This document shows, one piece after another, positions 7,672 through 63,385 of a DNA stretch of 64,000 nucleotides. This DNA is from Bacteroidales bacterium Phil12. Lineage in GTDB: Bacteria; Bacteroidota; Bacteroidia; Bacteroidales; P3. How positions within the stretch are numbered: the first letter of the stretch is position 1; each line of letters starts with the position of its first letter. Both the position numbers and the translations under genes were made by a program. The notes under the pieces were generated by a model. The model did no database searches, was not told the DNA's origin, and saw only the letters and a program-made list of their open reading frames with translations. Location: contig NWBO01000151.1 in NCBI GenBank assembly GCA_002633275.1, positions 1-64,000 on the forward strand, read 5' to 3'.

Positions 7672-7678
7672 CAAAATC

Positions 7679-7751
7679 AAAACAAGAGAAACAAATTAAA
7701 ACAAGAGAAACAAATTAAAACAAGAGGAACAAATTAAAACAAGAGAAACAA
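7679..7751 (+). repeat. 19-base tandem repeats in the fucosidase leader
   Basis: Units AAAACAAGAGAAACAAATT start at 7679, 7698 and 7717 (the last with one A-to-G change), plus a partial fourth at 7736. They fill the space between the promoter and the start codon at 7762. Confidence 0.9.
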
Positions 7752-17097: not shown

Positions 17098-17169
17098 CAA
17101 GATCCGAGTAATTTGTTTCTTCGTCAAGTTTTTCAACTTTTTACCTGCACGGTTTTCATCAAAATAATA

Positions 17170-17232
17170 TTTAGCACCGATACACTGACATTAAACACCG
17201 CTCAATCGATTATTGACACTTTTTGGGTAAAT
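17170..17232. repeat. Degenerate 21-base repeat array before the porin gene
   Basis: Three 21-base windows start at 17170, 17191 and 17212. The first two agree at TT-A-CACCG-T and share a -GA- further on; the third keeps GACACT. It is more degenerate than the other arrays in this window. Confidence 0.4.
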
Positions 17233-23552: not shown

Positions 23553-24182
23553 TTATTGTTTATACAATCCACTTTTTTCAATTTCTTTATAAACTTTTTC
23601 GCTCACCAAGTAACGAACGCTTTGTCCTTTTCGTATTTGCAAACGAATGTAAGATGCCGAAATATCTATCGTCGGAGCGTCTATAAGATGTATGCGTTTT
23701 GAATTTTCGCTTAAAATTGCGTTTATTTGCTGCATATCGGTATCGATAATTTCGGCGGCTTTAACGTCTTTTTTTCTCGGATATACATATATATTATAGT
23801 GTGAGACTATTTTTTGATAATCTTTCCATTTGTTCAACGCCCTCAGATTATCCTCTCCCATAATGAGAGAAAACTCTTTATCGGGGTATTTTTCAGTCAA
23901 AAAAGTCAGCGTGTTTATGGTATAAGAGGGCTTTGGCAGAGAAAACTCCACATTGGTCGCAAAAAAGTTTTCGTTATCCTCCACCGCCAATTGCACCAAA
24001 TGAAAACGAGTATTGTTATCCAACAAAGCGGATTGTTTTTTGAATGGATTTTGAGGCGAGACCACAAACCAAATCTTTGTCAAATCAGAGTTTTGAAGTA
24101 TATATTCGGCAAGTATCAGATGCCCTATGTGAATAGGGTTAAACGAACCGAAATACAATCCTATTTTGCTTTTTGTTTTCAT
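23553..24182 (-). CDS. nadD: Nicotinate-nucleotide adenylyltransferase
   Basis: A 209-residue nucleotidyltransferase in NAD synthesis, joining ATP and nicotinate mononucleotide. Signatures are GLYFGSFNPIHIGHLILAEY (the GxFxPxHxGH loop) and IDISASYIRLQIRKG (the SxTxxR-like loop). An open frame runs 24 codons further upstream to 24254, but that part is encoded by a 21-base repeat array (24187-24256). The ATG at 24182 is therefore preferred. The transcript leader would consist of the repeat. Confidence 0.93.
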   Translation of the reverse strand: MKTKSKIGLYFGSFNPIHIGHLILAEYILQNSDLTKIWFVVSPQNPFKKQSALLDNNTRFHLVQLAVEDNENFFATNVEFSLPKPSYTINTLTFLTEKYPDKEFSLIMGEDNLRALNKWKDYQKIVSHYNIYVYPRKKDVKAAEIIDTDMQQINAILSENSKRIHLIDAPTIDISASYIRLQIRKGQSVRYLVSEKVYKEIEKSGLYKQ

Positions 24183-24186
24183 CTGA

Positions 24187-24256
24187 CACTGTTTTACCGT
24201 CATTAACACTGTTTTACCTATGTTTAACACTGCTTTTTCAGTTATAATAATCACTG
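24187..24256 (-). repeat. 21-base-type repeat array in the nadD leader
   Basis: On the minus strand CAGTG recurs four times at spacings of 24, 21 and 20 bases. Two units share CAGTGTTAA and end in GGTAAAA. It abuts the nadD start codon, so it would be transcribed. The rest of 24183-24501 holds the promoter of the next gene and A/T-rich sequence. Confidence 0.65.
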
Positions 24257-36469: not shown

Positions 36470-36532
36470 AAAAAATCAGTGTTAATGATTAAAAAATCAG
36501 TGTCCGTAATTATTTTACTGATGTTTAACATT
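36470..36532 (+). repeat. 21-base repeat array overlapping the start and signal peptide of a gene
   Basis: Three units start at 36470, 36491 and 36512. The first two share AAAAAATCAGTGT exactly and end in ATT. The array contains the chosen ATG (36485) and encodes most of the signal peptide. Confidence 0.8.
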
Positions 36533-37249
36533 GTTTTTGCATCTTCATTATTTGCTCAATTCCCTGAGGATTATTGGGTAAGGGTTGAAGGCGGCAGTTT
36601 TGTTATGGGCTGTGATGGTGAGGGCGAAGATTGTTATCCCGACGAAAAACCTGCACATAAAGTAACCGTGAATAGTTTTTATATTGCCAAATACGAAGTT
36701 ACCGTCCAAGAATACAGAGATTATTGTAACAAAACGGGCAAACCGATGCCGCAAGAACCACCGTACGGTTGGCATGACAACTACCCTATCGTTTATCTCA
36801 CTTGGCAGGAAGCCTACGACTATGCAAAATATATGGGTTGCAGACTTCCTACCGAAGCCGAATGGGAATATGCGGCAAAAGGCGGCAAAAAATCCAAAGG
36901 TTTCAAATATTCGGGCAGCGATAATTGGGACGAAGTCGGCTGGTGCTATGAAAATTCCGCACGTCAGCCCAATGCCGTAGGCGTCAAGGCTCCTAACGAA
37001 TTGGGAATATACGATATGAGTGGCAATGCGTGGGAATGGTGCAGCGATAATTACGAAGTGTTTTATTATGAAAACTCTGCGTCAAACAATCCGAAAGGAC
37101 CCGAGCAGGGATTGGGCAAAGTCAATCGCGGAGGGTGTTTTGCTTTCGATTATGCGCTTATGAATACTCATCACAGAAGATGCCTTGATGCCAATGTCAG
37201 AGGTACGGGTACGGGATTCAGATTGGTCAAAGATATTAAGAAAAAGTAA
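36485..37249 (+). CDS. Exported formylglycine-generating-enzyme (SUMF1) domain protein
   Basis: A 254-residue precursor from the chosen start. It has a signal peptide (KKSVSVIILLMFNIVFAS, cut near SLFAQ) and then a full FGE-sulfatase domain: VEGGSFVMGCDGEGEDC, NSFYIAKYEVTVQEYRDYCN, RLPTEAEWEYAAKGG, NELGIYDMSGNAWEWCSDNY and GTGFRLVKD. The family includes true formylglycine-generating enzymes and many C-type-lectin-like exported proteins of unknown role; no sulfatase gene is in the window, so it is probably the latter. A longer start at 36425 would add a 20-residue basic N-terminus. The signal peptide is encoded by a 21-base repeat array. Confidence 0.85.
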   Translation: MIKKSVSVIILLMFNIVFASSLFAQFPEDYWVRVEGGSFVMGCDGEGEDCYPDEKPAHKVTVNSFYIAKYEVTVQEYRDYCNKTGKPMPQEPPYGWHDNYPIVYLTWQEAYDYAKYMGCRLPTEAEWEYAAKGGKKSKGFKYSGSDNWDEVGWCYENSARQPNAVGVKAPNELGIYDMSGNAWEWCSDNYEVFYYENSASNNPKGPEQGLGKVNRGGCFAFDYALMNTHHRRCLDANVRGTGTGFRLVKDIKKK

Positions 37250-37404: not shown

Positions 37405-38478
37405 ATGATAAAAAAAGTAATTTTAACGGTAGTTGCCTTGTTTGCGGCAGTGGGTGCATATTGTCAAGATACCTGGCAATATATCAGCAAAGAGAATATA
37501 GCATTCAAGATGCCCGAAAACTGGAAAATGATTAACACTTCCAAGCCTATGGGTGCTATGTGCGTAAAGATTTTTGACCCGAACTCGGCACAGTTTGTGG
37601 AAATCAGAGCCGAGAGAGTTAAGATAAATTTGAAAGTCAGGGCAAACGATATTGCAACAATGCGTTCTCAACAAAAGAATTTCGACTATATGCAAATAGA
37701 TAAAATACAAGCCTCGAAATTCAACGGACACGAAGCCCAAGAACTTAACTACACCAACACGTATTTGAACGATGTTTATTGCGGAAGTATTTACTCTTTT
37801 GTCAAAGAAGGCTACACTTACACGGTTGAATACTACGGCGAAAACAATCCTGCAACACAGAAATTTTTGAAACAAATCGCTTCCACAATCAATATCAATT
37901 CGGCAGACAAAAAAGAGAATATGCCAACGCTTGAACAAAAAAATTACACTCAAAAACGTTGGGCAAATCAGGAAATAGACCGCAGTGCAGAGATTGCAGC
38001 ACAAGAGGCGGCCAAAGCACAGGCACAAGCAGAAAAAGAAGCATTGAAAGCAAGAGAAAAGGCTGAAAAAGAAGCGGCAAAGGCAGAGGCTCAGGCAGAA
38101 AAAGACGCCCAAAAAGCGATGAAAGCCCAGATGAAAGCCGATAAACTTTCCGCCAAAGCAGAACGTAAAGCCATTAAAAAAGAACTTGCCCAGCAAAAGA
38201 AATTGGCAAAAGCGGAGATTGCAGCAAAAAAGAAATTTGAAAAAGAAAATAACGTTCAAAAACTGCAAAGTACCAAAAAATCCTTGGAAAAAGAATTGAC
38301 AAGTCTTGCAAGCGAACAATTGAAATTGCAAAATGAATACGGAGAACTGCAATTAAAGAACGAAGTCAAGAAAATGGAGAAAATCCAAGCAAAACAAACA
38401 AAACTTTCCGACAAAGTAATAAAACTGAGCAAGGAAAGAGATGCCATTTCTTCAAGACTTCAATACTTAGGCTACTAA
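37405..38478 (+). CDS. Exported protein with PsbP/DUF1795-like head and long Ala/Lys/Glu coiled coil
   Basis: A 357-residue precursor with a signal peptide (MIKKVILTVVALFAAVGAY, before CQ). A globular domain (about residues 22-170: KENIAFKMPENWKMI, FVKEGYTYTVEYYG) resembles small lipoprotein-like DUF1795/PsbP domains. It is followed by an alanine-rich coiled coil (EKEALKAREKAEKEAAKAEA, about residues 195-290) and a second coiled segment. No catalytic motif is visible. The coiled coil could span or anchor in the periplasm; the role is unknown. Confidence 0.75.
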   Translation: MIKKVILTVVALFAAVGAYCQDTWQYISKENIAFKMPENWKMINTSKPMGAMCVKIFDPNSAQFVEIRAERVKINLKVRANDIATMRSQQKNFDYMQIDKIQASKFNGHEAQELNYTNTYLNDVYCGSIYSFVKEGYTYTVEYYGENNPATQKFLKQIASTININSADKKENMPTLEQKNYTQKRWANQEIDRSAEIAAQEAAKAQAQAEKEALKAREKAEKEAAKAEAQAEKDAQKAMKAQMKADKLSAKAERKAIKKELAQQKKLAKAEIAAKKKFEKENNVQKLQSTKKSLEKELTSLASEQLKLQNEYGELQLKNEVKKMEKIQAKQTKLSDKVIKLSKERDAISSRLQYLGY

Positions 38479-38495
38479 TCATATTTGCTTATTTT

Positions 38496-38579
38496 AATCA
38501 GGGTAATCAAGAAAACAGTTAGTAAAAACGAAAAAACAATCGGTAAAATCAAGAAAATAATCGGTGTAATTATTTTTTC
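38496..38579 (+). repeat. 21-base repeat array, four units
   Basis: Units start at 38496, 38517, 38538 and 38559. The first and third share AATC-GGT-AATCAAGAAAA, and the third and fourth share AATCGGT. It fills the gap between the converging coiled-coil protein gene and dusB. Confidence 0.75.
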
Positions 38580-45990: not shown

Positions 45991-46050
45991 CGACTATTTT
46001 CGATATTAGATTTTAATTACGCATTGTTCGTTATCACCTTTTCACAAATC

Positions 46051-46155
46051 ATTTTTCTAATATCACCAATCAATAAATCAGTGTTAATGACTAATCAGTT
46101 GGTTTCAGTAATCAGTAAATCAGTCTCCCACACTATTTTTACGATTTTCATTTCC
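46051..46155. repeat. 21-base repeat array, five units, upstream of uvrB
   Basis: Units start at 46051, 46072, 46093, 46114 and 46135. Those at 46072 and 46114 share AAATCAGT in the same phase, and those at 46051 and 46135 share ATTTTT at the same phase. A further window at 46156 may belong. Confidence 0.65.
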
Positions 46156-50314: not shown

Positions 50315-50419
50315 ATTATTTTTCTAATCTCAATAACTATTTCATTAATCTCAATGATTATTTTTCCAATCACTCACATTATTTTTCCAATCTCAATGAT
50401 TATTTTTTCAATACATTTA
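50315..50419. repeat. 21-base repeat array, five units, most regular copy
   Basis: Units start at 50315, 50336, 50357, 50378 and 50399. Four share ATTATTTTT and three share AATCTCAAT at the same phase. The array fills the gap between lemA and the TPM protein gene and would be transcribed as the lemA leader if they form one operon. Confidence 0.88.
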
Positions 50420-52871: not shown

Positions 52872-54764
52872 ATGAAAGATACTTTTTTTAAGATTTTCGT
52901 TTTCCTTTTTTTTATCGGTGCTTTGGGAAAAATATCTGCCCAAAACGCCGATTTCAAAAGTGATTTCTCTTTTTCTTCCTCCAATACCAAAGCCGACACA
53001 TCACTCGATAATATAATCTATTACCATAACTCTAAAACGGATTACTTAATCGAACGCACTTTTGACACTCATCTCGATGTTTTCTCCACGCACTACTACA
53101 ACAAAGCCAATATTCCAAACGACCATTACTATCTACAACTGAACAATGAGGGCTCTGCAACCAAGGATATGATTTTTCATTTGGACGATATGTTTTCGTA
53201 CAAACGCAATAGCAATGGTTTTGAACCTTATAACTTCACTATCGATAACGTTAGGTATTTTCAAAATCGCAAAGCCTATACTTCTCTTGCTTATTCCAAC
53301 AGTATCAACGGTAATCAGTTTTTTAACGTTGAGTTTGCCAAGAATTTGTACAAAGGATTGAATTTGCAACTTAATTATTTGGTCAATTATGCCGACGAAA
53401 CCTTTGCAAATTCTCAGGTTATGAATCAATTTTTTAATTTTTCGTTAAACTACATCACTCCTTCGGGACGCTACCGAAACAATTTGGCTTTTGCCCATAA
53501 CCGTGCTTATATCCAAGAAAACGGCGGGATACTAAACGACAGCATTTTCATTAACCAAGAATATAGCAAGGACGGAACTTATCCCGTCAATAATTCTTCG
53601 GGGTGGAGCAAGTGGAAAACATCGGATTACGCCTTTACTCAAACTTTTCGTATAGACAAAGGCGACAACAACTCGCCCAAAATCTTTAATCTCGGTGCAT
53701 TGGTGCATAGCATTTCTTATTCTCGCTATGCCCATTTGTATGACGACAGAAACAAAACCATTAAAGATTCTCTTGGTACTAATATATGGCGAAACAGTTT
53801 GTTTTGGACGAACAATATTTACACAAATAAGGGCGATTTTTTCATTCCATTGGCAATTGGTATCAACTACGATTTGCTTAACTTCAATGATTCGCTTTAC
53901 AGTGAGACTTTTCATCTTATTTCTCCCGAAATAAAATTTGGACTACACTATAAAAACTTTCGTATCGATGCCAATCTATCAACCATTGTCAGCGATAACG
54001 AATACAAAAACGATTATCAATTTGCCATTGTCCCCAAATACTTTTTCAATATAGGCAAAAGCGGTGGCAATCACACAAATCCTCAAAACAATTCCTTTGT
54101 TTTTGCAGAAGTAAAAGTGCAAAACAAACAACCCGACTACATTTTCTCGCACTATCTGACCGAAAGCTTTGCGTGGGACTACGATGTGCAAAAGACCGAT
54201 AGCAAGTGCTTGGCGCTTGGCGTTGCGTTAGCAAACAAATTCATAATAAAGGCGAATGTTTTCGACTTGAAAAACTTTTATACCATAAATTCCGATGCAA
54301 ATATCGTGAGCGGAGACAGTTATTTATATCAATTGCAACTGCAAAACGATTTTTCGATAAAGTCTTTTCGCTTCAAAGGTGCTTTAACATTGCAAAAAGC
54401 GGATAATGAAGATATTTTACATTTGCCGCTGCTGACCATAAAACAAGGTGTGGCTTATTCATTTTCATGGATAAGGGGGAAATTAAATACCGATGTGGGT
54501 TTGGATTTCAATTACTTCACATCATACAAAGCGGATATATATAACCCATTGCTTGGTATGTATTGCTATCAAGATTCTTACAAGATAGGCAACTACCTAT
54601 TCACGGACGTGTATTTGAACATAAATATAGATCGTTTTTGTGTATTTGCAATGGTGCAGCACCCATATTCGGGTTTGTTTAATCACAACTACTTCAATTC
54701 GCCACTATATCCGTCGCAAGGATTTACGTTTAGATATGGCGTTATTTGGAAACTGTTAGATTAG
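52872..54764 (+). CDS. Putative beta-barrel porin (Porin_10-like)
   Basis: A 630-residue precursor with a signal peptide (about residues 1-23: FFKIFVFLFFIGALGKISAQ), then a long outer-membrane-protein-like region of repeated aromatic strands (SYSRYAHLYDDRN, FGLHYKNFRIDANLSTIVSD) ending in a strand with a terminal WKLLD. It resembles the putative porins of Bacteroidota. The ATG at 52872 gives a standard signal peptide; an upstream ATG at 52830 would not. The substrate is unknown. Confidence 0.8.
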   Translation: MKDTFFKIFVFLFFIGALGKISAQNADFKSDFSFSSSNTKADTSLDNIIYYHNSKTDYLIERTFDTHLDVFSTHYYNKANIPNDHYYLQLNNEGSATKDMIFHLDDMFSYKRNSNGFEPYNFTIDNVRYFQNRKAYTSLAYSNSINGNQFFNVEFAKNLYKGLNLQLNYLVNYADETFANSQVMNQFFNFSLNYITPSGRYRNNLAFAHNRAYIQENGGILNDSIFINQEYSKDGTYPVNNSSGWSKWKTSDYAFTQTFRIDKGDNNSPKIFNLGALVHSISYSRYAHLYDDRNKTIKDSLGTNIWRNSLFWTNNIYTNKGDFFIPLAIGINYDLLNFNDSLYSETFHLISPEIKFGLHYKNFRIDANLSTIVSDNEYKNDYQFAIVPKYFFNIGKSGGNHTNPQNNSFVFAEVKVQNKQPDYIFSHYLTESFAWDYDVQKTDSKCLALGVALANKFIIKANVFDLKNFYTINSDANIVSGDSYLYQLQLQNDFSIKSFRFKGALTLQKADNEDILHLPLLTIKQGVAYSFSWIRGKLNTDVGLDFNYFTSYKADIYNPLLGMYCYQDSYKIGNYLFTDVYLNINIDRFCVFAMVQHPYSGLFNHNYFNSPLYPSQGFTFRYGVIWKLLD

Positions 54765-54843
54765 TATCTCACACCACTAAATCAGTGTTTAACACTAATT
54801 TACTAATCAGTGAAACTAATTTAACAATATGAGTTATTGTTTT
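54760..54843 (+). repeat. 21-base repeat array, four units, with a dyad
   Basis: Units start at 54760, 54781, 54802 and 54823. The second and third both end in ACTAATTT. The second contains AGTGTTTAACACT (54784-54796), a perfect 6+1+6 dyad. The rest of the gap to 55025 shows no other feature. Confidence 0.65.
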
Positions 54844-59590: not shown

Positions 59591-59758
59591 GCTCAAACAG
59601 TGTCAATAACTATTCGATTAGTGTTAAACACTAACAATCCAATATCACTAATCAATAATTCAAAAACACTTCATTTTTTCCCAATCTCAATAAACTTATT
59701 CAAAAAACGACCACTCCCTATATTTTCACTAAACATTTACCAAATAAATCCACAAAAG
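59591..59758. repeat. Degenerate 21-base repeat tract with dyad TTAGTGTTAAACACTAA
   Basis: In a 21-base register from 59591, eight windows keep CACT, CAATC or related bases near the same phase. The dyad at 59618-59634 is perfect (8+1+8). It fills most of the gap 59524-59806 upstream of the four-helix bundle gene. Regularity decreases to the right. Confidence 0.55.
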
Positions 59759-61932: not shown

Positions 61933-63237
61933 ATGAATAATAAAGAAAATAATCTTACTGCCGACCAAATCGAAAAAACATCACAGGATTTGAACAAATC
62001 CGATAACAAAAATCTTAATCGAACCAAAGAAGAATTTCAAGAAAATATTGACGACAAAGAAGACTCTCCACAAACAAAAGAGCCTATCTTTGCTCCTCTT
62101 AAAAAGAAAGATGTGCATAAAAATCTCTTGGAAGACCAGACTTTCTTTGTCAATGAACAATATATTCACCCATACTTTGAAGACGATCCCACACTTGGTC
62201 TTTGCAAAAAAAATTACAAAGAGCCGCTAACCTTGATGCACGGAACTTCCAAGACTCCCAAATCCTACCAAACCATATCAAAGCAAGACCTTAATTCAAG
62301 CGAAAAACTTCATGTCACCAATTGGATGGAAAATGTTAAACCTCCTTCGTCGCAAGGTTATTTCGATTATGTGGAAGTCAGATTCAAGAACTCTCACAAA
62401 GACTTCTATCAAATTCCCGAAGGCTTAGAGATTACCGAAGGCGATGTTGTAGCCGTTGAAGGTACGCCCGGACATGATATAGGCATTGTTTCGCAAACAG
62501 GTGAGTTATGCAGAATCCAAATGAAAAAGAAAAAAGGATTCAATATCGACAATGTGAAAAAACTTTACCGAAGAGCCAATGCGTCTGACATTGAAAAATG
62601 GCTTGAAGTTATGGCAAAAGAAGACCAAACATTGTTCGACACACGCAAATTCGTAATGGAAGACAATCTTAGCATGAAAATCAACGATGTTGAGTTTCAA
62701 GGAGACGGCACAAAGGCAATATTCTATTATACTGCCGATGATAGAGTGGATTTTCGTTTGCTTATAAAACAATTGGCAGCCGCTTTCCATATCAAAATCG
62801 AGATGAAACAAATAGGTGCTCGCCAAGAAGCTGGAAGATTGGGCGGTATAGGTACTTGCGGTAGGGAAATATGTTGTTCGACCTGGTTAAACAATTTCAC
62901 TTCCGTGGGAACATCGGTTGCAAAAGCCCAACAATTATTCCCAAATCCACTGAAATTGGCAGGTCAATGCGGAAAACTTAAATGTTGTTTGAATTACGAA
63001 TACGATGTATATCAAGACGCATTGAAAGACTTTCCTCCTATCGGCGTTGATATTGAGACAAAAAAAGGTAAAGCGATATACCGAAAGAGTGATATATTGA
63101 AAAAAATCTTGTGGTATTCATACAAGGATTCTTCCGAGTTTATTCCAATAAGTGCCGATAATGTAAAAAAAATTCTTGCTATGAACAGAAACAAAAAGTA
63201 CATAGAAGACTTGGAATCATTCAAAGCCGAAATATAA
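61933..63237 (+). CDS. ricT: RicT/YaaT family (PSP1) Fe-S protein
   Basis: A 434-residue protein. The N-terminal 100 residues are charged and low-complexity. The PSP1 domain (about residues 140-330) reads YVEVRFKNSHKDFYQIPEG and LLIKQLAAAFHIKIEMKQIG, with cluster-binding cysteines in GTCGREICCSTW and CGKLKCCLNYE. In Bacillus, RicT works with RicA and RicF in RNA maturation by RNase Y; those partners are not seen here. It is followed by gldH and a probable PBP gene, an order I recall from Bacteroidota. Confidence 0.92.
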   Translation: MNNKENNLTADQIEKTSQDLNKSDNKNLNRTKEEFQENIDDKEDSPQTKEPIFAPLKKKDVHKNLLEDQTFFVNEQYIHPYFEDDPTLGLCKKNYKEPLTLMHGTSKTPKSYQTISKQDLNSSEKLHVTNWMENVKPPSSQGYFDYVEVRFKNSHKDFYQIPEGLEITEGDVVAVEGTPGHDIGIVSQTGELCRIQMKKKKGFNIDNVKKLYRRANASDIEKWLEVMAKEDQTLFDTRKFVMEDNLSMKINDVEFQGDGTKAIFYYTADDRVDFRLLIKQLAAAFHIKIEMKQIGARQEAGRLGGIGTCGREICCSTWLNNFTSVGTSVAKAQQLFPNPLKLAGQCGKLKCCLNYEYDVYQDALKDFPPIGVDIETKKGKAIYRKSDILKKILWYSYKDSSEFIPISADNVKKILAMNRNKKYIEDLESFKAEI

Positions 63238-63256
63238 TATGTTTAACCGCTAAAAT

Positions 63257-63385
63257 AATAAGTGGTATTAAAAACTTAGTGTGTGATATTAGTAAATTAG
63301 TGTTAAACATCAGTAAAATAATATCAGTGATTAATAAAATAATATGTGAGATTAATTTTCTGATATGTGGAATTAAAAACGTGAT
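63257..63385 (+). repeat. 21-base repeat array, six units, between ricT and gldH
   Basis: Units start at 63257, 63278, 63299 (24 bases), 63323, 63344 and 63365. They keep GTG...ATTA at similar phase, with CAGTGATTAA and TTAGTGTTAAACAT inside. The array fills almost the whole gap. Confidence 0.75.

Follow-up and report, generated by a model that had tools for sequence, protein, structure and literature searches.

In eukaryotic and archaeal chromatin, including that of the HU-family protein HTa, a nucleosome-like imprint is found in which base composition is periodic in phase with the bound protein, and whether bacteria have regular, sequence-reflected chromatin is a long-standing question. The 10 to 11 bp periodicity of other bacteria is usually read as a structural code. 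According to published work, this code is carried in third codon positions and has a length of about 100 bp (PMC4132750), the periodicity persists over entire chromosomes in some species (PMC3431218), and synonymous replacement reduces the signal to about 10 to 20% (PMC4132750, PMC3431218, PMC7537859). Among repeat families, published descriptions present BrickBuilt of Porphyromonas gingivalis as a 23-nt minisatellite/MITE with 19 copies, most of which bear a leader and/or tail including terminal inverted repeats (PMC4596501), and REP/BIME sequences, with their RAYT transposases, as multicopy short palindromes of extragenic DNA that can be tandemly arranged (PMC3733652). The nearest known phenomenon to the 21-bp lattice reported here is the 10 to 11 bp structural code, or A-tract periodicity. 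In agreement with the preliminary description of the locus, which knew of no such family in Bacteroidota, a search of open-access papers found neither a comparable 21-bp lattice nor a similar family of arrays.

The window, a stretch of DNA analysed over its full 64 kb, forms the first part of the 210-kb contig C151 of G000, a draft assembly of 174 contigs and 2.96 Mb (2,961,433 bp). Four contigs, window included, were analysed (1,181,500 bp, 40% of the genome), with genes called by a purpose-written script that misplaced some starts, and relatives of G000 were examined as small samples. Ten intergenic arrays with a period of almost exactly 21 bp had been listed from the window; all ten were present, each with at least two in-register units in a unit-profile search. 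The array presented as the most regular proved real, TRF placing it at 50315 to 50412 on the minus strand with a period of 21 bp, 4.7 copies, 72% matches, and 0% indels. Four profile units lie at 50322 to 50405 on the same strand, and none of 300 dinucleotide resamples matched the lag-21 score. By Pfam, its neighbors, both on the minus strand, are a TPM-domain gene (PF04536) and lemA (PF04011). The TPM-domain gene has a near relative, at 98% amino-acid identity, in the uncultured Bacteroidales bacterium RUG093, whose name we take to denote a rumen genome, and the array itself also occurs there (locus L066), differing in a by-eye comparison by three C/T transitions.

The strongest array of the window, with seven units and a lag-21 score of 59.0 (0 of 300 resamples), lies at 63232 to 63378 on the plus strand, between a PSP1-domain gene and gldH (Pfam). 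Profile chains on the minus strand gave four units at 54759 to 54842, at the end of a Porin_10 gene (Pfam), and three units each at 24194 to 24256 and 36474 to 36536, all three arrays being unmatched by any of 300 resamples. The same held for about three degenerate units at 38496 to 38575 (unstranded; lag-21 score 25.4; TRF 38508 to 38565 with period 21, two profile units) and for two unstranded profile units at 1250 to 1291 (lag-21 score 16.5), so that self-similarity at lag 21 was unmatched at seven of the ten arrays. Taken singly, the remaining arrays, first listed at 17170, 46051, and 59591, were weaker: the lag-21 scores of three weak units at 17162 to 17224 (minus strand), five units at 46034 to 46138 (minus strand), and three units at 59595 to 59657 (plus strand), all profile chains, were matched by 11, 10, and 2 of 300 resamples, respectively. 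The label intergenic also held only in part. The array at 1255 lies within the called 5' end of an ORF whose start codon is uncertain, those at 24187 and 36470 touch called gene starts (the former overlapping by about 10 bp the start of the gene called at 23553 to 24203, the latter touching the start at 36521 of the next gene), and the pattern enters genes. No Rfam family reached its gathering score in the window. Ordinary tandem repeats were seen at 7674 to 7751 (19 bp, 4.1 copies, 94% matches) and, within a called CDS, at 37996 to 38105 (33 bp, 3.3 copies).

Across G000, a period scan of 600 called gaps (156,514 bp, from the 1,181,500 bp) bore out the 21-bp period, 6-mers recurring at lag 21 at 121.7 per 10^4 compared with 10.9 +/- 1.1 in ten dinucleotide shuffles. 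Further peaks occurred at lags 42 (93.9), 63 (34.7), 84, and 105, and lags 20, 22, and 23 were slightly raised (16.1, 29.4, and 25.3 versus about 11). Of 242 lag-21 segments, expectation-maximisation assigned 174 to a single class whose unit, TAAAWTARTGTTAAACAYYAR, is composed of a 15-bp quasi-palindrome and a 6-bp A/T linker; the unit profile covers these 174 segments, and the 68 others form a looser A-rich class. Many further copies were recovered, with 257 chains and 864 units in the called gaps of 40% of G000 (183 chains with at least three units, 64 single units), a gap-based set that omits arrays inside called ORFs, the 50315 array among these. At E <= 0.001, at least 191 profile matches were obtained over the whole of G000, 150 of the 3126 candidates from the first look having been scored. 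Successive profile matches lay exactly 21 bp apart in 443 cases, 42 bp apart in 20, 20 bp in 2, and 22 bp in 4, and when a two-unit text pattern was applied with linker lengths of 0 to 15, 168 pairs had a linker of 6 and one had a linker of 5, the remaining 14 lengths being unrepresented. Units follow one another across 6-bp linkers and unique spacers are absent, as the first reading had held in setting CRISPR aside.

Within the unit, positions 6 (T) and 14 (A) are nearly fixed (0.96 each, 864 units), positions 8, 10, and 12 are W, and the intervening odd positions are variable. Positions 9 and 11 are strongly coupled (T..A in 374, G..G in 171, and C..C in 121 of the 864 units), the core couplings reading TWA, GWG, or CWC. 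In ordinary minisatellites neighboring units are alike, one having been copied from the other. Across 607 pairs of adjacent G000 units, the bias-corrected same-position information was at most 0.071 bits, so adjacent units are not fresh copies of each other, and units are distributed almost as if drawn independently from a single profile shared across the genome. An RNA hairpin was rejected, complementary coupling being absent in units (7/13 weak) and across the linker (13/7, 12/8, 11/9), and the sole strong core coupling, 9/11 (T-A, G-G, C-C), not being that of pairing. Inspection of the profile for coding through units showed position 9 to be G at 0.24 and C at 0.25 in the frame without fixed stops, giving TGA as readily as TCA, so that the profile shows no avoidance of stops.

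The link to transcription suggested at the outset found little backing. The share of gap DNA taken up by main-class arrays is 12.7% where the flanking genes run in the same direction, 12.3% where they diverge, and 13.5% where they converge, and this similarity across gap types led us to reject a role in transcription or termination. The arrays are closer to the upstream stop, at a median distance of 41 bp, than to the downstream start, at 96 bp, and in same-direction gaps 67 of 110 share the orientation of the genes. Even chromosomal spacing was likewise rejected, arrays being if anything slightly clustered (CV 0.95 versus 0.85 +/- 0.05 for random gaps). Other elements were noted in G000 gaps. 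Two elements of about 600 bp (L041:14961-15569 and L045:18489-19070) have 21-bp-phased arms that run outward from GC-rich palindromic centers (GTTGCGCAAC) and grade into A-rich units; similar inverted designs occur in G007 and G013. What looks like a MITE is dispersed over L047:961-1597, L057:2545-2991, L030:11800-12351, and several other G000 gaps; it measures about 255 bp, has the terminal inverted repeats TTAACGTGAGTTCGACGAAATTAAT ... ATTAAATTCGTCGAACTCACGTTAA, and its copies are about 72 to 91% alike. Another repeated element, at L032:1515-2188 and L049:11829-12860, resembles a family of attenuators: it contains a short ORF of leader type and a strong hairpin with T's after it (in one copy AAGGTATGCAG...CTGCATACCTTTTTT), and one of its copies has a G-run.

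The 21-bp pattern extends beyond the arrays. In array flanks, G/C peaks at unit positions 3, 9, and 11 persist for at least 84 bp, and in 368 gaps without a recognized chain (78,773 bp) the top G+C autocorrelation lags between 12 and 89 were 21, 42, 63, and 84, although these gaps may still contain arrays of the looser A-rich class that contribute to the signal. In genes, third-position G+C (GC3) had its highest lags at 7, 14, 21, 28, and 35 codons; third codon positions, one per 3 bp, cannot separate a 7-bp wave from a 21-bp one, and it is the gaps that show 21 itself. Synonymous-codon permutation within 652 genes, proteins unchanged, lowered the lag-7 GC3 excess from 0.0516 to 0.0007. A seven-phase model over 3468 windows of 70 codons gained 1080.7 nats over a flat one and -0.3 with codons shuffled, its template having one third position at 0.56 GC and the other six at 0.28 to 0.42. 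Because synonymous permutation abolishes it, the gene signal lies at the DNA level, and protein heptad repeats as its cause are excluded by the same shuffling. The lag-7 GC3 excess was also found in the sister species G005 (272 genes) and in G013 (42 genes), and was absent from G015 (36 genes). In genes neighboring arrays, G+C counted in array phase is in excess at positions 3-4, 9/11, and 16-17 of the unit, chiefly at third codon positions. The original label of an intergenic repeat family was therefore too narrow, since the array-phased wave crosses synonymous codon positions, and the 21-bp step stays while the unit sequence varies by species.

When phase was set by arrays, codon-3 sites 200 to 400 bp away had G+C of 0.44 to 0.51 at unit positions 2-4, 9, 11, 16, and 17, compared with about 0.30 at 6, 7, and 12-14. 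The 7-bp harmonic followed array phase with an amplitude of 0.040 at 300 to 500 bp (random-phase spread 0.004, 8 draws) and 0.013 at 1 to 1.5 kb, and its sign was reversed at 3 to 4 kb (-0.012), as expected if the wave has a period of 7.007 rather than 7.000 bp (21.02 for three). A sharp line at 7.005 to 7.0085 bp was present in each of the four contigs. By demodulation, coherence of the 7.007-bp wave was 0.224 at 210 bp, 0.153 at 1050 bp, and 0.061 at 2520 bp (noise 0.013); the wave is coherent over about 2 kb, across gene boundaries, and reaches noise level by 5 to 8 kb. The 21-bp fundamental keeps step with arrays for no more than about 300 bp, and farther out just the 7-bp harmonic does so. 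That the period is non-integer, that coherence spans kilobases, and that neither gene boundaries nor reading frame disturb the wave all point to a physical ruler on the DNA. In the G+C spectrum of the whole window, power at 7.0 bp was 3.29 times the median (z 12.9), compared with 1.14 times (z 0.9) in the shuffled window, which reached up to z 2.7 at 21 bp, so that z below 3 was taken as noise. Positions 24000 to 64000 are rich in the 7.007-bp wave (genes included), with a 2-kb statistic of 2.3 to 14.3 in 17 of 20 windows (white noise 1). Positions 1 to 24000 are poor in it (0.1 to 3.3 in 12 windows) and are possibly more recently acquired or rearranged DNA.

Most sampled congeners carry lines at 7.0 or 10.5 bp, the spectral samples excluding G004 and G011. 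At 7.0 and 10.5 bp, z values were 21.5 and 25.7 in G001, 7.4 and 7.3 in G003, 19.0 and 3.6 in G005, 6.6 and 2.0 in G007, 11.9 and 14.1 in G008, and 8.6 and 19.8 in G013. Weaker lines were recorded in G006 (z 4.4), G012 (z 3.9), and pooled G002 and G009 (z 5.0 at 21), and the G010 spectrum was at noise (z 2.9). Other genera of the family were positive on 20 kb each in G016 (z 11.7 at 10.5) and G024 (z 4.8 at 7.0). No line was found in G015 or G032, nor in G014 and G018 (20 kb each, weak negatives), while G038 of another family lay at the noise limit (z 3.0 at 10.5). Escherichia coli K-12 (50 kb) had no line (z 1.6 at 7.0, 1.9 at 11.0), compared with z 4.2 to 7.1 in four 50-kb pieces of G000. 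The G000 unit model matched 4 of 61 genomes, G000 counted and all of the same genus, and at a stricter cut 3 of 190 family genomes, G000 again counted, both with a filter that loses weak matches. Arrays of 21 bp with other sequence were found in G001, G007, G012, G013, and others; in G013, array counts were higher at lag 22 (10) than at lag 21 (8). G006 had no array excess at lag 21, G012 no lag-21 excess in single-base identity, and the rows for G004 and G011 were apparently spoiled by N stretches. Among the gaps listed, five G000 array gaps had conserved neighbors by eye, three against G013, one against G012, and one against G007. The G013 counterpart of C53:133307-133735 is a 21-bp array of different sequence, and none was seen in the other four gaps.

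These spectra bear on a naked-DNA structural code, in which selection on bending, writhe, or supercoiling favors G+C at a fixed helical phase without a dedicated coat protein, and which we consider rather unlikely here. The period is near two B-DNA turns, third positions encode the signal in G000, as with the cyanobacterial 11-bp signal (PMC4132750), and the dominant line, 7.0 bp in G000 and G005, is at 10.5 to 10.6 bp in G001, G008, and G013. However, a dominant period of 10 to 11.6 bp, found in part in these three congeners, is absent from the G000 spectrum (of G+C, not of AA/TT), where the main line at 7.007 bp is two thirds of a turn (2.90 times at 7.0, z 20.4) and that at 10.5 bp is weak (1.34 times, z 3.7). 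Coherence extends over about 2 kb rather than about 100 bp, and the quasi-palindromic motif with its coupled TWA/GWG/CWC core resembles a binding site more than a bending signal.

Comparison with G005 (about 94 to 97% identity over most long aligned stretches, 472 kb used) distinguished shared from genome-specific DNA. Genome-specific segments, defined as those unaligned to the 472 kb of G005 with flanks shared, had a mean wave statistic of 0.96 in G000 (37 windows in six segments, noise 1), with 1 of 37 above 3, compared with 3.79 in 425 windows of shared DNA (p 6e-11, a value too small since windows half-overlap). The counterpart in G005 was 1.00 in 8 windows of three segments versus 4.00 in 417. 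One blank segment, C151:172290-178452 (6.2 kb), carries genes that by eye are putatively flavodoxin-like, SDR, AraC-type, and hydrolase-like. Because genome-specific segments are without the 7.007-bp wave, the pattern seems to have been acquired during residence in the genome, and the same blankness speaks against an artefact of sequencing or assembly as well as against a cause in protein coding.

Of the 600 gaps, 167 were mapped to G005, 63 of them with arrays. Substitutions were as frequent in units (227 of 4032 sites) as in the rest of the gap DNA (1810 of 35196), and 12.7% of fourfold sites differed. Small indels were found in 3 of 411 array windows compared with 151 of 3345 non-array and 82 of 1286 AT-rich non-array windows (windows overlap), making them six- to ninefold rarer in arrays, a depletion possibly inflated up to twofold since the test took arrays regular in G000. 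A cruder count of all indel sizes, badly aligned gaps included, gave no depletion (9.7 versus 8.8 per kb). Changes by multiples of 21 occurred in 5 of 411 array windows and 2 of 3345 outside (windows overlap), and among 137 orthologous neighboring unit pairs, 134 retained 21, one gained a unit, and two moved one base. Array spacing is protected; array sequence is not. A constraint within units at positions 6 and 14 is suggestive only (7 of 384 changed versus 929 of 25604 AT sites elsewhere, p 0.07). In some places the unit core or the linker, flanked by short inverted repeats, is exactly or almost exactly inverted in one of the two species relative to the other (C158:139131-139214, C53:227557-227619), which at 4 to 5% divergence suggests template switching at quasi-palindromes.

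Mutation alone could account for a substitution rate that is not lowered in arrays and for blank segments, which would slowly fill; here W/S changes would be biased by enzymes of repair, replication, or modification that move along DNA in steps of 7 or 21 bp, and the pattern would be functionless. The rarity of small indels nevertheless indicates selection on spacing, and a motif with coupled positions is unexpected from strand-walking mutation, making this explanation improbable.

Rearrangements between G000 and G005 comprised 14 junctions in 13 events, and 8 of the 14 junctions lay within 60 bp of an array. By eye, three events involved in-register exchange between arrays: an inversion joining the arrays at C158:83787 and 243458, a 6.2-kb segment, flanked by two arrays in G000, where G005 has just one hybrid array, and a 5.6-kb segment of G005 where just one hybrid array is found in G000. 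Such exchange may shuffle units between loci and help explain the common profile. That arrays are primarily recombination sites, where cassette exchange or inversion takes place and in-register concerted evolution maintains unit and spacing, draws on these junctions and hybrid arrays, but arrays are only modestly enriched there (in 7 of 13 events; p 0.016 with a one-genome null and 0.25 with a lenient one), homologous recombination can use any dispersed repeat, and the pattern in genes goes unexplained; we regard this account as decidedly improbable. The array at the inversion breakpoint (C158:83787-84461) adjoins, in both G000 and G005, a gene for a 321-aa tyrosine recombinase that is the best PF00589 match of G000. 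Tyrosine recombinases as candidates for the responsible protein were set aside as non-discriminating, being present in 39 of 41 genomes.

Duplication that carries minisatellites or MITE-like repeats into the spaces between genes, on the model of BrickBuilt of P. gingivalis, is most improbable of all: the arrays are tandem, spacer-free, species-specific repeats in Bacteroidales, some in G001, G012, and G024 have near-identical adjacent units, and one G000 array pair is 98.9% identical over 88 bp, but adjacent G000 units share almost no information, 183 aligned array edges have no common flank words except AT-rich ones, with only a fading 21-bp G/C pattern and no common leader, tail, or terminal repeats, and the codon-3 periodicity is left unexplained, which refutes duplication for the pattern in genes.

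Noncoding DNA of G000 has a 21-bp period, quasi-palindromic 15-bp sites, and A/T linkers, and the best explanation of the arrays is that they are the sites where a chromosome-wide periodic pattern is least hindered by coding. We infer a fibre and its protein, and judge the chances to be about even that the 21-bp lattice was imprinted by a nucleoid fibre whose repeat spans two helical turns. Of the interpretations first offered, the two-turn step stands, and phased protein sites or a nucleoid-linked element come closest to this reading. A nucleoid protein would cover the DNA in a regular fibre that has a unit for every two turns of the helix. Each unit would occupy a quasi-palindrome, prefer A/T at linkers and at alternate core positions, and tolerate or favor G/C at the teeth. 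Substitution and selection beneath the fibre would slowly inscribe its footprint in resident DNA, newly arrived DNA would begin blank, and the inscribed pattern would, through a presumed feedback, help keep the fibre in phase.

The nucleoid fibre is favored because the period is exact, adjacent units are not fresh copies, the spacing is protected, synonymous codon choice carries the period, array phase continues into genes, and genome-specific DNA is blank. It is weakened because the dominant line differs between species, as a single rigid fibre would not lead one to expect. The change, from three teeth per 21 bp in G000 to two in G001 and G013, may come from a difference in the subunits that occupy a shared two-turn ruler. 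Further points against it are that the fundamental is out of array phase beyond about 300 bp and that the lines of G000 are not exact harmonics, because the weak whole-sequence fundamental peaks at 21.15 to 21.20 and not at 21.02. Array-array recombination, seen in three rearrangements, could alone spread or re-register units, and gene phases are slightly anchored to start codons (resultant 0.100, noise 0.046), which weakens the fibre reading as well. Searches for HU, histone-fold, and RAYT proteins gave no candidate. Histone-fold PF00808 was found in 0 of 14 genus genomes and in 1 of 41 genomes searched overall, and clustering of paralogues among 909 called proteins returned nothing specific. 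HU (PF00216) matches are expanded in G000 (23), G005 (13), and G014 (25); of the 34 other genomes searched, 26 had 2 to 5 and G047 had 13; HU copy number was rejected as a tracker of the pattern, G014 having 25 matches and yet no line in its 20-kb sample.

A broader statement, offered tentatively and at somewhat less than even probability, is that a rumen family of Bacteroidales has histone-free bacterial chromatin in the form of a protein fibre with a 21-bp unit. Its footprint would lie in noncoding DNA and in codon choice, position itself over about 2 kb, turn over in motif between species with the two-turn ruler kept, and serve by its strength as a clock of residence. A kilobase-coherent wave shapes synonymous codon usage in phase with motif arrays in gaps, and codon-usage models, neutral-site assumptions, and repeat annotation would need correction here. 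Comparison of positive with negative relatives offers a direct route to the responsible protein, and absence of the pattern is perhaps a new signature of recently acquired DNA.

Among known systems, REP/BIME sequences resemble the G000 arrays in being short extragenic palindromes of many copies, tandem in G000, but the G000 arrays have a fixed 21-bp spacing; the Y1 transposase (PF01797) was found in 0 of 14 genus genomes and in 5 of 14 control genomes. Like BrickBuilt, the arrays are tandem, imperfect, spacer-free, intergenic repeats of similar length in Bacteroidales. Unlike it, G000 has 183 arrays of at least three units in 1.18 Mb, without common flanks, its unit is palindromic, and the pattern runs on into genes, so that the resemblance is only superficial. 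Like the nucleosome-like imprint, the G000 pattern is a periodicity of base composition, putatively in phase with a bound protein, but in contrast to histone chromatin the unit is 21 bp and no histone fold (PF00808) was found in the genus genomes. With the 10 to 11 bp structural code, the G000 lattice has in common a helical-pitch period, an occurrence in genes and gaps with greatest strength in synonymous third positions, and, as in some genomes, a chromosome-wide extent. It departs from that code in its 21-bp gap period and dominant 7.007-bp line, both on G+C, in a signal coherent over about 2 kb rather than about 100 bp, in sharpening into visible motif arrays, and in the genome-specific segments without the pattern. 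The G000 case shares the principle of the structural code and differs from it in period, range, and visible arrays.
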